Positions 6,650-43,492 of a DNA stretch of 64,000 bases are shown in pieces. The DNA comes from Streptomyces spinoverrucosus (GTDB taxonomy: Bacteria > Actinomycetota > Actinomycetes > Streptomycetales > Streptomycetaceae), in the NCBI RefSeq assembly GCF_015712165.1, contig NZ_JADPZX010000001.1:2728001-2792000 (forward strand). The letters run 5' to 3'. The notes below the pieces were generated by a model. That model worked only from the letters and a program-made list of their open reading frames with translations, made no database searches and was not told the DNA's origin. How positions within the stretch are numbered: the stretch's first letter is position 1; each line of letters starts with the position of its first letter. A program made the position numbers and the translations under genes.

Positions 6650-6883
6650 TCAGGACTTCTTCGCCACGGTTTCGGTGTCGGCTTCGGTGTTCTTGGTGGT
6701 GGCGGGCGTCGCCGGCCGCTCCTGCTCGGACACGGCACCTTCCGCGGCGTTCGCCTCGCACTTGGGATTCCGGCACGGTCCGGCCACCCACACCGGAACC
6801 CACGCGCCCAGCGTCTTGTGGCGCCGGACGACCGTATCGACGGGCTGTCCGCATACGGGACAGACATGTTCTGCGCTGTCCAT
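6650..6883 (-). CDS. small zinc-ribbon protein
   Basis: A 77-aa protein. An N-terminal pair CPVCG (residues 8-12) and a second pair C-x4-C in GPCRNPKCEA (about 36-45) could form a zinc ribbon. The C-terminal half is low-complexity, rich in T, E and K, and ends TVAKKS. A run of eight T on the plus strand (6639-6646 region) lies just past its stop. It is a typical conserved small Streptomyces protein; its role is unknown. Confidence 0.7.
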   Translation of the reverse strand: MDSAEHVCPVCGQPVDTVVRRHKTLGAWVPVWVAGPCRNPKCEANAAEGAVSEQERPATPATTKNTEADTETVAKKS

Positions 6884-7026
6884 GCCCCAAGCGTAGGGCG
6901 GACGGCGGCTCAGCGCTCCCTGCTGTACGTCCTCACGAGGACGCCGTTGCCCCGACGATGATCTCCACCTCGGGGCCGGGCGGACTCCGCCGGGCCTGAT
7001 CCACCACCGGCCCTGACGAAAGCGGG

Positions 7027-7053
7027 CCCCGCACACCGTGGGGATGTGCGGGA
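7027..7053 (-). terminator. possible terminator of the polyprenyl synthetase gene
   Basis: An imperfect inverted repeat, CCCCGCACACC with GGATGTGCGGG, lies about 100 bp past the stop of the polyprenyl synthetase gene. A second short GGCCGG/CCGGCC stem follows at about 7060-7074. There is no T tract, so the call is weak. Nothing else is recognisable in 6884-7150. Confidence 0.35.
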
Positions 7054-7150: not shown

Positions 7151-8296
7151 TCAGGCGCTGCGGCGCGTCACGAACTCGGCGAGGGCGAGCAGCCCGCCCG
7201 CGGCCTCCGGGTCGGGAATCGCGCGGGACAGCTCCTGCATCGCCCGCGCCATCCGCTCGGACGCCTGGACCTGCGCCCAGTCCCGCCCGCCGGCCCGCTC
7301 CACGGCCAGCACCGTGGGCTCCAGATCACCGCCGTCGTACGGCACTTCGTACAACTCGGCGAGTTCTACGGCGGCCGGTGTCCCGGAGACCAGCGCGGCC
7401 ACCACCGGCAGGGACTTCTTGCGGGCCGCCAGGTCCGCTCCGACCGGCTTGCCGGTGCGGCCCGGGTCACCCCATATGCCGATGACGTCGTCGATGAGCT
7501 GGAAGGCGAGCCCGGCCTCCCGGCCGAACGCGTCCAGCGCCTCGACATCACCCGCGGCCGCCCCGGCGTACAGCGCGCCGAGCGCGCACGCGCACCCGAG
7601 CAGCGCCCCGGTCTTGGCCTCAGCCATGGCGAGCACCTCGTCGAGGGTGACCTCCGAGGGGCCGCGCCGCTCCATCGCCGTGTCGGCCTGCTGGCCCTCG
7701 CACAGTTCGACGACACAGGCCGCGAGCCGGGCGGCGGCGGCCGCGGACGCCGGGTGCGGATCCTCCGCGAGCAGCCGCAGGGCGAGCGCCTGGAGGGCGT
7801 CCCCGGCGAGGATCGCGGCGGTGTCGCCGAACACCGTCCACGCGGTCGCTCGGTGCCGGCGGGTGGTGTCCCGGTCCATCACGTCGTCGTGCAGCAGCGT
7901 GAAGTTGTGCACCAGCTCCACCGCCGCGGCCGCCCGCACCGCGCTCGCCTGTGCCCCGGGGCCGCCGAGCGCGGCGGCCCCGGCGAGGACGAGCGCCGGC
8001 CGGATCGCCTTGCCCGCGTTGCCGGTCGCCGGGGTGCCGTCCGCGTGCTCCCAGCCGAAGTGGTAGCGCGCGATCCGGCGCATCGCACCGGGCAACGAGT
8101 CGACCGCCGAGCGCAGTTCGGGGTCCACCGACGCCCGCGCACGCTCCAGGATCACCGCCGCCTCGGGACCGTCGAGCGGCCCCGGCCCGCTGTCCGCCTG
8201 GGTCGCGATGGAACTCCGCCTTTCGGACGCCCCGGCAGGACGCCGCCCGCGCTGCGCCGGGGGCTGGTTCGTCGACTCGGTCACGGACTCGGTCAT
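7151..8296 (-). CDS. polyprenyl synthetase, probable cargo of the adjacent encapsulin
   Basis: Trans-isoprenyl diphosphate synthase, 381 aa from the ATG at 8296. The first aspartate-rich motif is LLHDDVMDRDTTRR, the second is FQLIDDVIGIWGD, and GKAIRPALVLAG is the substrate-binding G-K-x-x-R-P box. Such enzymes condense isopentenyl diphosphate with an allylic diphosphate to give GPP, FPP or GGPP; the chain length cannot be read safely. The first 60-70 residues are disordered, rich in Pro, Ala, Ser and Arg, and absent from ordinary members, which is where encapsulin cargo-loading segments lie. The frame remains open to 8395, so a longer N-terminus is possible. It lies about 120 bp downstream of the shell gene on the same strand. 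Confidence 0.9.
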   Translation of the reverse strand: MTESVTESTNQPPAQRGRRPAGASERRSSIATQADSGPGPLDGPEAAVILERARASVDPELRSAVDSLPGAMRRIARYHFGWEHADGTPATGNAGKAIRPALVLAGAAALGGPGAQASAVRAAAAVELVHNFTLLHDDVMDRDTTRRHRATAWTVFGDTAAILAGDALQALALRLLAEDPHPASAAAAARLAACVVELCEGQQADTAMERRGPSEVTLDEVLAMAEAKTGALLGCACALGALYAGAAAGDVEALDAFGREAGLAFQLIDDVIGIWGDPGRTGKPVGADLAARKKSLPVVAALVSGTPAAVELAELYEVPYDGGDLEPTVLAVERAGGRDWAQVQASERMARAMQELSRAIPDPEAAGGLLALAEFVTRRSA

Positions 8297-8414
8297 GGGA
8301 TCGAGGTCCCCCCTCGGAGAGTCTGCGGACAGCGGCGCTTCCGCTCCGGCCGGGCGCGTACCCCGAGGTGTACCCACCCTGGCGGGCGGGGACACGACAC
8401 ACGGACCGGGAGGG

Positions 8415-9821
8415 TCACCGCCAGCGGCCGATCTCGACGTTCTCCAGCACGCCGAGCGCGTCCGGCACCAGAACCGCCGCCGAGTAGTAGGCCGTCACCA
8501 GGTACTTGATGATGGCCTGTTCGTTGATGCCCATGAACCGCACCGACAGGCTGGGCTCGATCTCGTCCGGGATGCCGGACTGGCGCAGACCGATCACACC
8601 CTGCTCCGCATCACCGAGGCGCATCGCGATGATCGAGCTGGTCCGGGCCTCGGTGACCGGGATCTTGTTGCACGGGTAGATCGGGACACCGCGCCAGGTC
8701 GGGATGCGGTTGCCGGCGACGTCGATCGTCTCGGGCACCAGGCCCCGCTTGTTGAGCTCACGGCCGAACGCGGCGATCGCGCGCGGGTGGGCCAGGAACA
8801 TCTTGGTGCCGCGCCGGCGGCTGAGCAGCTCGTCCATGTCGTCCGGGCTGGGCACCCCGTCGTGCGGCTGGATCCGCTGGTCGTACTCGCAGTTGTTCAG
8901 CAACCCGAACTCACGGTTGTTGATCAGCTCGTGTTCCTGGCGTTCCTTCAACGCTTCGACGGTCAGCCTGAGCTGCTGCTCGGTCTGGTTCATCGGCTGG
9001 TTGTACAGGTCGGCCACGCGCGTGTGGATGCGCAGCACGGTCTGGGCGATGCTCAGTTCGTACTCTCGGGGCCGGGCCTCGTAGTCCACGAAGGTGTGCG
9101 GGATGTCCGGCTCGCCCGCGTGACCGGAGGCGAGGTCGATCTCCTTCTCGCCGAACTTGTTGGTGCGCTGCTGCGGAATGGACCGCTGCTGCTCAAGGTG
9201 CTCGCGCAGCGAGTCCGCGCGCTCGGCGAGCTGCTCGACGTGCTGGCGGGTCAGGACAAGGATCGTGCAGGGCGTGATCGCGCGGGCCGTGTACTCCCAG
9301 ATGGCGTCCGGGTCGAGCAGCGCCTGCTCGCCCAGGTAGGCGCCGTCGGCGAGCACACCGAGGCTCTCGTCGTCGCCGTACGGGCCGGTGCCGATCTTCT
9401 CCACCCTGCCGTGCGCCAGCAGGTACACCTCGTCGGTCTGGTTGCCGAAGTCGGCGATGACCTCGCCAGCGGCGATCTCGCGCTGCTCACAGCGCTGAGC
9501 GAGCTCGGTCAGCACCTCCTCGTCCTCGTACGACCGCAGCGCCGGCAGCTCGCCCAGCTCCGCGGGGATGACCTCGACACGGTCGCCGGTCTTCACGAAG
9601 GTGATGCGTCCGTCACCCACGGCGTAACTGAGCCGCCGGTTCACGCGGTACGTGCCACCTTGCACGTCCACCCATGGCAGCATGCGCAGCAGCCAGCGCG
9701 AGCTGATCTCCTGCATCTGGGGTGCGGACTTGGTCGTGGTGGCCAGGTTCCGCGCGGCCGCCGTGCCGAGACTCTGCTGCGGCTTCGTCTGCTCCGTGCG
9801 GACCTCTTCGCCTACCGACAT
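8415..9821 (-). CDS. family 2B encapsulin shell protein with cNMP-binding-like insertion (EshA-like)
   Basis: Shell protein of a proteinaceous nanocompartment, 468 aa. The N-terminal arm and first HK97-type segment cover residues about 1-105 ([24 protein letters not shown]). A cyclic-nucleotide-binding-like domain is inserted at about 108-210 ([31 protein letters not shown]). The HK97 fold resumes from about 225 to the end ([58 protein letters not shown]). This is the architecture of family 2B encapsulins such as S. griseus EshA, which older annotations call cNMP-binding regulators. Known family 2 cargos include polyprenyl transferases and terpene cyclases, and the next gene is a polyprenyl synthetase. 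GGGAGGG precedes the ATG by nine bases. Confidence 0.93.
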
Positions 9822-10110
9822 AAGGAATTGCCCTCCCGGTCATGCCCTGGCAGCGGATTTCGCCGGGCACCGATCTCCGAGGGAAAGCCTTCCAGCACGG
9901 AGCGTGTTCGTGCTATTACACGAAAGAGCGGGAATGGATCAACTCCCGCTGGGCACACATGGGTTCCTCCTCGAGCGATGCACTGCGCCCTGACCGAATC
10001 GGCTCGTTCGCCGTGCGAACGGATGGTTCCGTTTCTCCGCGATTCGGTACAAGCAGCGTGTACGAGGCGGCCGCGACGGGCGGTCGTCGCGCCGCACGAA
10101 GGAGGCACTC

Positions 10111-40751: not shown

Positions 40752-42131
40752 TCACCTCGGGACGGGCGTGAGCAGCAACTTGTGCGGGCGGAGCGTGATG
40801 CCGACCCGGGTGGTGTCGTTGGACCCGGGCACCTGCTCGAAGCGGTACTTCGTCGCGACCGCCGCCGTGATCAGCGTCAGCTGGGCCATCGAGAAGTGGT
40901 CGCTCGGGCACTTGCGATTACCCACGCTGAACGGACTCATGGCATATTTCGGCACGTCTTTGGCGCGCTCCGGAAGCCATCGGTCCGGGTCGAACTCCAG
41001 GTTGTCCGCGTACGATCGCGCATCGCGCTGTATCGCGTACGGACTGTAGATGATGTCCGCCCCGGCCGGAATGCGATAGCCGCCGAGTTCCGTCTCGGTG
41101 ACCGCCCGCCGCGTCAGTATCCATACGGCGGGACGCAAACGCATCGCCTCCACGACGACATTGTTCGTGTGGGTGAGCCCCCGGACATCCGCGAATGCGA
41201 CGGGCCGGCCGCCGGTCACGGATTCGACTTCGTCCCGGACCCGGTCCGCGTGTTCCGGATGCTCGGCGAGCACCTGGAGCAGCCACATGATCGTGGAGGC
41301 CACGGTTTCGCTCCCCGGGGTGAGTATCGCGACCACCTGGTCGTGGATCTCCTGTTCCCCGATGGGCTCGCCATTCTCGTCCTTCGCTGCCAGCAATGCC
41401 GTCAGCAAATCGTCCGGCTTTTGACCGGATGCCCGGCGTTCGGCCACGATCTCGTCGACCAGGAGATGCAAATCGGCCAGCGCCCGGTTGAATTCACGGT
41501 TGGCGGGCAGCGGCAGCCGGTACAGCGGCCCGAGCGGGATCACCATCCGCTGGTACATACCGCGGAACACGGTGGCGAGGGCGAGGCACAGCCGCTCGGC
41601 GCGCTCGTCCATGTACTGGCCGCGCAGCAGACAGCGGGCCGCGATGCGCACGGCGACCCGGAAGGACTCGGAGGTGCAGTCGATGGTCTCGCCGGGCTGC
41701 CAGCGGGTGGTGAGTCCGTGCGCCTCCTCCTCCATGATCGGCCCGTAGGCGGGGATCGCGTCGAGCCGGAACGCGGGCTGGATGGTGCGGCGTTGACGCC
41801 GGTGGCGGGGCCCGTTGGCGGTGGCCACGCCCTCCTTGCCGAGCAGGCCCTCCAGGGACTCCCACAGCGGGCCGTCGATCTTGTAGTCGGGGCTCAGCGC
41901 CAGCGCGCCGGTGAGCGCCGGGGTGGTGACGGCGTACACCGTCTTCGGGCCGAGCCGCAGCCGGACCACGTCACCGTGGTCGCGCAGCTGGGACATGAAG
42001 GCCAGGGGATCTCGCACCAGCTTCAGGCCGTGACCGAGAAGCGGGAACCCACCGCCCGCGAGGGGCGGTTCACGCAGCTCCGACGCCTGCCCGTGTTCCT
42101 GGGCCTCGGGCTTCACAGACTCGACGGTCAT
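40752..42131 (-). CDS. cyp170A1: cytochrome P450 CYP170A, albaflavenone synthase
   Basis: A 459-aa P450 that oxidises epi-isozizaene to albaflavenone. The heme-binding region is FSVGNRKC at about residues 401-408 with the ligand Cys408, an unusual variant because Pro replaces the Gly normally found two positions later. The ExxR pair is in EAMR (328-331). The I-helix reads [12 protein letters not shown], lacking the usual acid-Thr form. S. coelicolor CYP170A1 also has a moonlighting farnesene synthase site. The ATG overlaps the stop of the cyclase gene (ATGA), so the two proteins are made together. Codon use is less GC-rich than in its neighbours. Confidence 0.93.
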
Positions 42132-43213
42132 TTCTCACCTGCCGTTTCGTTGTTGACGTACGGGGGCGTGGACCGGTCGTCCCAGCTGTCGACCATGTAG
42201 CGGCCGGACTCGTGGTGGAACCAGTAGACGGAACTGAACCAGTTCCGCATATTCCCGAGGCAGGCGCGCACGGCAGCGCTCAGTTCCTTTCCGCGTACCG
42301 TGCCGTCGGCGAGAGCATCCGCAAAGCGTAAGCCCTCCCGTTCGGCGACGAGGAAGTCGGCTATGCATTCCTCGACGCGCCGCCGGACTTCGACGACTGC
42401 CTCTTCGAGAGTCAGCCCCTCATGGGTGATGAGACTGATTCCGAGATTGTGCACCTCATCGCCCGCGATTTCCTTGGGCAAGGAACAGAGGTCGTTGTAC
42501 CAGGCGGCGAATTCCTGGCTCAGCAGCGCCGCCTTCCGATAGGCCGGGTGCTTGCGCACGGCGTCCGGGAGTTCCTGTCCGGCGCTCGGCTCCAGCAGGT
42601 CGGTCCATATCCAGTGCGCGAACGTGAGCCGGCGCAGCGCCAGGTATTCCTCGACCGTCGGGACAATACCTTCGGTACGGTTGCGGAATTCCTTGTCGTA
42701 CGCCTCGATCACCGCGTGGAAATGCCGGGTGAACCGCTCGTTCCAGGTGCGGGGCAGGAACGAGTACAGCCGCAGCACACTGTCCGCGAACCCCGCGACC
42801 AGCGGGTCCCCGTGGTGCAGATGTTTCTGGGGGGAGTCGAGCGCCTCGTGCAGTCGGGCCCGTAGCCGGCGCCAGGCGACGGGGCGGTGGTGGACGATGT
42901 CACGGTCGTGCCGGTCGTCCCAGACGAAGAACCACGCGCTGTAGTCCGCTATCGCCTGCAGGACATCGTCGGGGGCGCCAATGTAGTACCCCGCCATGAG
43001 ATCGGTGTAGCACAGGCCGTCGGCATATTCCTCAATCTTGTCCGTCGGCATGAGCCGCTTTTCCAGGAGCCACGTGCGGGTCTTCTCCTGGAGCCTGGGC
43101 CAATACGGGTGCAATTGCCTGGGAAACGCCGCCTCGATCACCGGAAGAGACAGCGAGGGTGGGATCGCGATCGCGGTTGCGGTCGCTGTGGTGCTGTGTG
43201 GGAAAGCAGGCAC
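42128..43213 (-). CDS. epi-isozizaene synthase (sesquiterpene cyclase)
   Basis: Cyclises farnesyl diphosphate to epi-isozizaene, the first step to the antibiotic albaflavenone. From the GTG at 43213 it is 361 aa, the same length as the S. coelicolor enzyme, with the aspartate-rich motif DDRHD at 99-103 and the NSE motif NDLCSLPKE at 240-248. GAGAGGGG lies seven bases before this GTG, which decides against the longer open frame to 43306. Leu295 is encoded by TTA (42329-42331), the rare bldA-dependent codon. The 279 bp upstream hold the promoter and no gene. Confidence 0.95.
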
Positions 43214-43492
43214 GAACAAACCCCTCTCAGCCGCCGGTCGGGCACGCCCCGTCCGCTGTGCCGGGCGTGCGCCGTTGCGTATCCCGCACTTCCCATTCAG
43301 CACCACAACTGACCGCTATGGGAACGGATTTGCTTCATTCACTACCCCACAGTGCCGAGATTCTCCCGCCACTTGACTGGTTTTGGATCACTCGCGGCAC
43401 ACAACCGATCGAACATGCGTCGGACAGACGAACGGCGCCCGATCGGGCCGGGCAACCCGATCAGACGCCGTACGTGGGAGAACGGTGAGGTG

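Follow-up and report, generated by a model that had tools for sequence, protein, structure and literature searches.

Results

Gene content of the locus

The window, a stretch of 64,000 nucleotides of Streptomyces spinoverrucosus DNA, contains a unit of two minus-strand open reading frames, shell and then polyprenyl synthase, at the places where the first-pass annotation had put them. The unit, which is of a kind already named in databases and in print, is preceded by a conserved element:

8415..9821, minus strand: family 2B encapsulin shell, probable EshB (SCO5249) orthologue, 468 aa (NF041163, PDB matches, gene order)
7151..8296, minus strand: polyprenyl (short-chain trans-prenyl diphosphate) synthase, 381 aa from its likely ATG (NF041169, PF00348)
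9915..9941, minus strand: conserved upstream element TGATCCATTCCCGCTCTTTCGTGTAAT (78-sequence alignment)

The family 2B encapsulin identity that had been proposed for the shell is borne out, and at the level of sequence it stands far beyond chance: the product scores 771.7 bits with the NCBIfam model encap_f2b (NF041163; cut-off 400 bits), its residues 216-466 match the SrpI-like family PF19307 (E 2.4e-137), and the solved shell 9bhu aligns with residues 7-467 (655 bits), followed by 9bix and 9bje as further near full-length matches. A PF00027 domain is placed between the N-terminal shell part and PF19307, as seen at the sequence level, with its insertion in the E-loop assigned by homology. 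The structure model of the shell, built from a 16-sequence alignment, has a mean pLDDT of 36.9, and the HK97 fold is assigned purely by homology. Three features of the shell are of interest for its function:

9219..9482, minus strand: inserted cNMP-binding-like domain, shell residues 114-201 (PF00027, E 6.7e-16)
9297..9299, minus strand: Trp175, approximately where nucleotide-binding domains have the Arg that binds phosphate (aligned column)
8688..8735, minus strand: luminal-loop region of 16 residues, candidate cargo contact (same site as luminal diagnostic motif 2 in the S. lydicus shells)

In nucleotide-binding domains, the Arg at the column of Trp175 binds phosphate. This Arg, by which a functional cyclic-nucleotide sensor would be recognized, is absent from the shell, and the column holds Trp in all 93 distinct shells compared, the second shell of the genome among them, as well as in the 18 cyclase-linked shells that could be resolved out of 20 looked at. 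A CBD protein elsewhere in the genome reads GELSLFDPGPRTA at this site, in an alignment that has a one-residue gap there. According to the accessible text of PMC12407261, a cNMP-like domain of this kind has been shown not to bind cyclic nucleotides. Because Trp replaces Arg, and because of this published report, cyclic-nucleotide sensing by the shell domain is unlikely, and the earlier suggestion of a ligand-responsive insertion is weakened as far as cyclic nucleotides are concerned; another ligand is possible.

The position of the luminal loop was taken from the luminal diagnostic motif 2 of the S. lydicus shells, as given in the accessible part of PMC12407261. The loop mostly opens with PE[TS][IV][DE] in synthase-linked shells, mostly reads PESVDIGGHHVPAWRG in the shells of the group with short synthase tails described below, and often reads PDHVDxGGQxVPAWRG in cyclase-linked shells. 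Its variation follows cargo class, as would be expected of a cargo contact, but also ancestry, and we regard the loop as a candidate contact.

The upstream element TGATCCATTCCCGCTCTTTCGTGTAAT spans 27 bp, and some 95 bases separate it from the shell ATG. Most of its bases are identical in at least 90% of the 78 aligned sequences, the window included, and it is the single site within three mismatches in its own genome. A 25-base version occurs once each in 22 of 61 genomes, always just upstream of a shell gene, and is absent from the other 39, some of which have the synthase unit. By these features the element looks like a dedicated promoter or operator. A promoter scan flagged a terminator-like hairpin at 9927-9950, which overlaps the element, and found no sigma-70-type site near the locus; a search for tandem repeats near the locus gave three weak matches only, of about two copies each.

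The synthase and its start

Directly downstream of the shell gene and on the same strand lies the polyprenyl synthetase gene that had been recognized before; its product contains PF00348 and passes NF041169, the named encapsulin-cargo family, with 487.8 bits (cut-off 450). The features used below are the following:

7874..7888, minus strand: first Asp-rich motif DDVMD, with Phe at position -5 (motif alignment)
7478..7492, minus strand: second Asp-rich motif DDVIG (motif alignment)
8168..8296, minus strand: N-terminal tail of about 43 residues, probably disordered (model pLDDT, comparison)
8204..8224, minus strand: ERRSSIA, an instance of E[RH][RLHK]..I (motif search, minority of relatives)
8159..8173, minus strand: DGPEA, where the first catalytic helix begins (conservation among shell-linked synthetases)

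The first-pass annotation had the gene begin at the GTG at 8395, which would give 414 aa and a tail of 76 residues. In several relatives (L052, L075 and L094) the frame is closed a short distance upstream and the protein begins with MGE, a start whose aligned counterpart in the window is the ATG at 8296; this ATG opens MTESVTES, and starts of relatives such as MGEFMTET align with it. Because of these closed-frame relatives, the GTG start is probably wrong, and the synthase probably begins at ATG 8296, with 381 aa and a tail of about 43 residues. A small Cys-containing open reading frame at 6650-7036 (minus strand; likely ATG near 6882; CPVCGQPV...; no Pfam match), which is present in 49 of 60 fully flanked loci, was considered as a third gene of the operon and is not counted in the unit, its likely ATG lying about 270 bases beyond the synthase.

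Both Asp-rich motifs are retained throughout, the first as FTLLHDDVMD or a close variant and the second as the DDVIG type, each in 111/111 synthases. The structure model (pLDDT 82.7) has a trans-polyprenyl-synthase fold, with the S. coelicolor structure 3nf2 as its best PDB match. An aromatic residue five positions before the first Asp-rich motif is suggestive of C15-C20 products, and the match to the GGPP synthase model IdsB (360 bits) lies below the cut-off of 475; together, this chain-length rule and the sub-cut-off match suggest that the product is C15-C20. The genome contains seven PF00348 genes, this synthase counted, and a private prenyl diphosphate pool is plausible on the basis of its gene content. 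As a side observation, one shell-linked synthase (L168, G045:C11:219910-220779), whose start DAQDAEELL is divergent, attains the family cut-off only when its neighbours are included in the frame.

The N-terminal tail and its motifs

A disordered extension of about 65 residues had been described for the synthase. The disorder agrees with the model, in which residues 1-42 have a pLDDT below 50 and the first helix begins at residue 44; the length does not, being about 43. We compared 111 synthases, of which 106 are distinct (window included) after removal of five with identical first 300 residues, and took as a possible start every ATG, GTG or TTG, beginning 20 bases ahead of the shell stop. The tail before the conserved domain is at most 15 residues long in 13 of the 106 and at most 30 in five more. 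Seven of these 13 synthases have no earlier start anywhere in the open frame, and the other six have earlier starts only far within the shell gene, from which the tails would be at least 131 residues long. Tails of more than 100 residues are possible in other relatives, and the length is otherwise hypervariable. The accessible text of PMC8346489 describes disordered N-terminal domains of 50-100 residues on polyprenyl transferases, without a targeting motif, and suggests them for loading; against this range, the tail here measures about 43 residues from the ATG and 76 from the GTG.

The short tails imply either that loading works otherwise or that the species concerned do not load their synthase. 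The idea that the extension is a conserved loading segment does not survive this comparison, in which neither its length nor its sequence is conserved; the first-pass annotation had itself named such a lack of conservation as an observation that would speak against its reading. There is no support for a long conserved loading tail, and a long tail appears unlikely to be needed for loading in general. A long tail, then, cannot be the general answer to how family 2B encapsulins take up polyprenyl synthases, and the natural synthases with tails of at most 15 residues are ready-made test objects for loading.

The first-pass annotation had also proposed to look for short conserved motifs in the tail; a motif of the ERRxxI type exists in a minority of relatives. 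E[RH][RLHK]..I is present in 30 of the 106 distinct synthases, compared with a mean of 0.12 in shuffles that keep composition and do not correct for shared ancestry, and a variant of it in 32 synthases. The segment around DGPEA is far more widespread. The pattern [DE]G[HQPR][ED]A..xL is found in 85 of the 106 synthases; loosening it brings the number to 99, and 105 have [EDK]A..[ILV]L. The first of these patterns is found in none of 19 paralogues whose fetched surroundings contain no shell, which proves little, as these controls are only 43-54% identical. The plain reading of the segment is that it marks the edge of the folded domain; a loading tag is possible. The tail of the window synthase does not contain a cyclase motif of the GPTGLGTSAAR type, and GPTG was rejected as a motif of synthase tails, its 3 occurrences in 106 being near chance (1.78 expected).

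Distribution and chromosomal setting

The cargo family is found above its cut-off in 227 of 295 Streptomyces genomes. A shell gene, or its visible part, stands beside the synthase gene in 109 of 110 loci, which were picked by synthase similarity; the exception is a locus (L042) whose contig begins 21 bases before the match. At E 1e-100, at least one family 2B shell is present in 59 of 61 genomes and exactly one in 23. Among these single-shell genomes, 19 of 23 have a best synthase match at E 1e-140 or better, the two genes adjoining in the 13 of the 19 for which both positions were listed, and 16 of the 19 are free of an NF041167 cyclase at E 1e-60 (the NF041168 cyclase family being left out of this count). 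Consistent with these numbers, the accessible text of PMC8346489 counts 900 polyprenyl-transferase operons, 888 of them in Actinobacteria, and 165 systems that have a terpene cyclase too, and that of PMC8049743 names the polyprenyl diphosphate synthase gene as the most frequent neighbour of family 2b shells. Because of the cyclase-free single-shell genomes and these published counts, a synthase-only compartment, as predicted from the gene content, is the ordinary case. The description of the locus as synthetase-only was right, this being the usual form and no oddity. It was likewise correct that no terpene cyclase is adjacent; an epi-isozizaene synthase with its P450 is present in the window, at a distance of more than 30 kb. 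That pair, epi-isozizaene synthase and albaflavenone monooxygenase (40752-43306, minus strand; both above their NCBIfam cut-offs), lies outside the unit.

Beyond the shell gene follow, in this order, genes for an amidase (PF01510), a PALP enzyme (PF00291), a Na/H exchanger (PF00999) and a UBP-type zinc finger protein (PF02148), then a short open reading frame without Pfam match, interpreted by us as encoding an anti-sigma factor, and finally the gene of a sigma-70-type factor. In the 60 loci with both flanks complete, the exchanger and the PALP enzyme are present in all 60, the zinc finger in 59 and the amidase in 46; judged by this gene order, the locus is mostly fixed in the chromosome, and it is common in the Streptomyces genomes searched. 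A plasmid search, among the ten matches listed of 32, gave only more distant shells of 43 to 65% identity. In two other Streptomyces genomes, matches to the shell gene (G037:C45:110223-111566 and G036:C2:833342-834277) contain an internal stop and are perhaps decaying copies.

SigH and its anti-sigma factor are SCO5243 and SCO5244 (PMC9739823), and eshB is SCO5249 according to the accessible text of PMC3878966. The step from shell to sigma factor is six genes here and likewise six by the SCO numbers (SCO5249 to SCO5243). Because this spacing agrees, the shell is probably the orthologue of EshB, as counted by gene order against the SCO numbers in these papers.

The second shell of the genome and the cyclase motif

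A second shell gene is located elsewhere in the genome, at C1:6100589-6101938 (plus strand), and is followed by a cyclase gene, whose product passes NF041167 with 544.6 bits (cut-off 400), and by a gene for a geranyl diphosphate 2-C-methyltransferase; by its enzymes, this unit is probably of the 2-methylisoborneol type. The HK97 parts of the two shells are 65-67% identical and the inserted domains 43%. The cyclase of the second unit carries GLGTSAAR and GQGTSAAR, which leads to a further feature of the shell in the window:

9750..9773, minus strand: N-arm SLGTAAAR, shell residues 17-24, resembling the cyclase cargo motif GLGTSAAR (sequence comparison)

Among 93 shells (92 of them synthase-linked), the N-arm is SLGTAAAR in 61 and SLGTSAAR in 22. 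In 20 cyclase-linked shells, six of which were read by eye from the sequences, it is SLSTAAAR (6), SLGTAAAR (5), SLGIAAAR (4), SLATSAAR (2), SLGTSAAR (2) or SLSTSAAR (1). On the cargo side, T[AS]AAR occurs in 8 of 30 cyclase loci compared with 0.13 in shuffles, and the residue after G[LI]GT is A or S in 24 of the 30 and a different one in five, one locus having no G[LI]GT. The likeness of the cyclase cargo motif GLGTSAAR to the shell N-arm, S-L-x-[TI]-[AS]-A-A-R, was noted between window 9750-9773 and L014:15606-17327. A search of the literature, with subscription papers outside it, gave no mention of LGTAAAR or SLGTSAAR, and GPTGLGT and GLGTSAAR only in PMC8346489, whose accessible text uses them to describe cyclases.

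It is conceivable that there are two loading codes, in which cyclases would dock by a copy of the N-arm (GLGTSAAR), and synthases by way of [DE]G[HQ]EA or the clade-specific ERRxxI, with the long tail dispensable; we regard this as speculative and rather improbable. The exact string LGTSAAR is not commoner in cyclase-linked shells (2/20) than in the mostly synthase-linked ones (22/93), which counts against mimicry, as do the outward-pointing N-terminus of the solved family 2A shell (accessible text of PMC8346489) and the limited distinctiveness of short strings rich in Ala. The likeness between cyclase motif and N-arm is one at the level of the family and not specific to cyclase shells.

Discussion

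Proposed function and alternative explanations

What the sequences provide directly is a family 2B shell of the EshB type and a synthase of the named cargo family that keeps both Asp-rich motifs. We propose, and consider reasonably probable, that this EshB-type shell encloses the synthase and maintains a private pool of short prenyl diphosphate, loading in general not depending on a long tail. Like the S. lydicus shell, it would form a T=1 particle, with the synthase inside. IPP and an allylic primer would enter through the two-fold pores, which are described in the accessible part of PMC12407261 along with the position of the cNMP-like domain over the two-fold pore; there, the domain probably does not sense cyclic nucleotides. 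The short (C15-C20) prenyl diphosphate pool would be kept apart from the other polyprenyl synthetases of the genome, and would be made during development, when eshB is up-regulated: as far as the accessible texts go, the eshB promoter is up-regulated in development (PMC3878966) and a study of differentiation lists SCO5249 with positive log2 values (PMC3610822). Loading would proceed by a short element near the first helix, by the folded synthase itself or by the clade-specific ERRxxI motif, each of which seems more likely than a long tail.

The synthase might instead be loaded by its N-terminal disordered extension, the relatives with very short tails having lost loading or using a remnant. 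This reading, suggested in the first-pass annotation and in the 2021 survey (PMC8346489), is unlikely, but it has some backing: of the 105 synthases with the shell stop in view, only 13 do not allow a tail of more than 15 residues, and the enrichment of E[RH][RLHK]..I is accompanied by its being kept while the linker changes (L029, L103 and L079). However, the motif is absent from 76 of the 106 synthases, related patterns are absent from all 16 synthases examined at the loci with short tails and at their neighbours, the shuffles that make it stand out ignore shared ancestry, and 13 of the 106 tails are no longer than 15 residues.

Two further explanations question the compartment itself or its composition. 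In the older EshA literature, such a protein is a regulator that acts on ppGpp accumulation and antibiotic production, and the adjacent synthase would then be incidental. EshA does affect development and antibiotic production, as reviewed in PMC6627660 (accessible text), but these phenotypes belong to the paralogue EshA, the cNMP pocket of the shell here has no Arg, and the synthase adjoins the shell in 109 of 110 loci, though these were picked by synthase; we regard a regulator as highly improbable. The least probable reading, to which we give very little credence, is that the shell mixes with the second, cyclase-type (probably 2-methylisoborneol) shell in one particle and passes GPP directly to the cyclase pathway. 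The genome does hold that second shell with its geranyl diphosphate methyltransferase and cargo-type terpene cyclase, and two distinct S. lydicus shells co-assemble according to the accessible text of PMC12407261; on the other hand, the HK97 parts here are only 65-67% identical, the window synthase has no cyclase motif, and mixing is not needed where a single shell accompanies the synthase. Mixed EshA/EshB shells were rejected as a requirement in view of the single-shell genomes that have a synthase and, at E 1e-60, no NF041167 cyclase.

Comparison with known systems

The family 2B systems with polyprenyl transferase cargo, as surveyed in the accessible text of PMC8346489, have in common with the present unit the cNMP-like insert, the adjacent synthase, a disordered N-terminus (probable here) and the lack of a known targeting motif; they differ in tail length, 50-100 residues in the survey compared with about 43 here and at most 15 in some relatives. 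The two-component family 2B shell of S. lydicus (9bix and 9bje, which we take to be the shells of PMC12407261) is alike from end to end in both sequence and order of domains, but that system has two shells, whereas the unit described here has one shell gene and no second shell. The S. griseus shell 9bhu has the same architecture, and there too Trp takes the place of the cNMP Arg. We assume it to be the 2-methylisoborneol shell EshA, with a terpene cyclase as cargo and not a polyprenyl synthase. In the accessible text of PMC12407261, 9BHU is the family 2B encapsulin of S. griseus. Closest in setting is EshB (SCO5249) of S. coelicolor, to which the shell is likened by SCO numbering and not by sequence. 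The partner synthase of EshB is presumably SCO5250. The latter is named among the isoprenoid-pathway genes in PMC7494193, and EshB itself lies six genes from SigH (SCO5243), just as the shell of the window lies six genes from its sigma factor.
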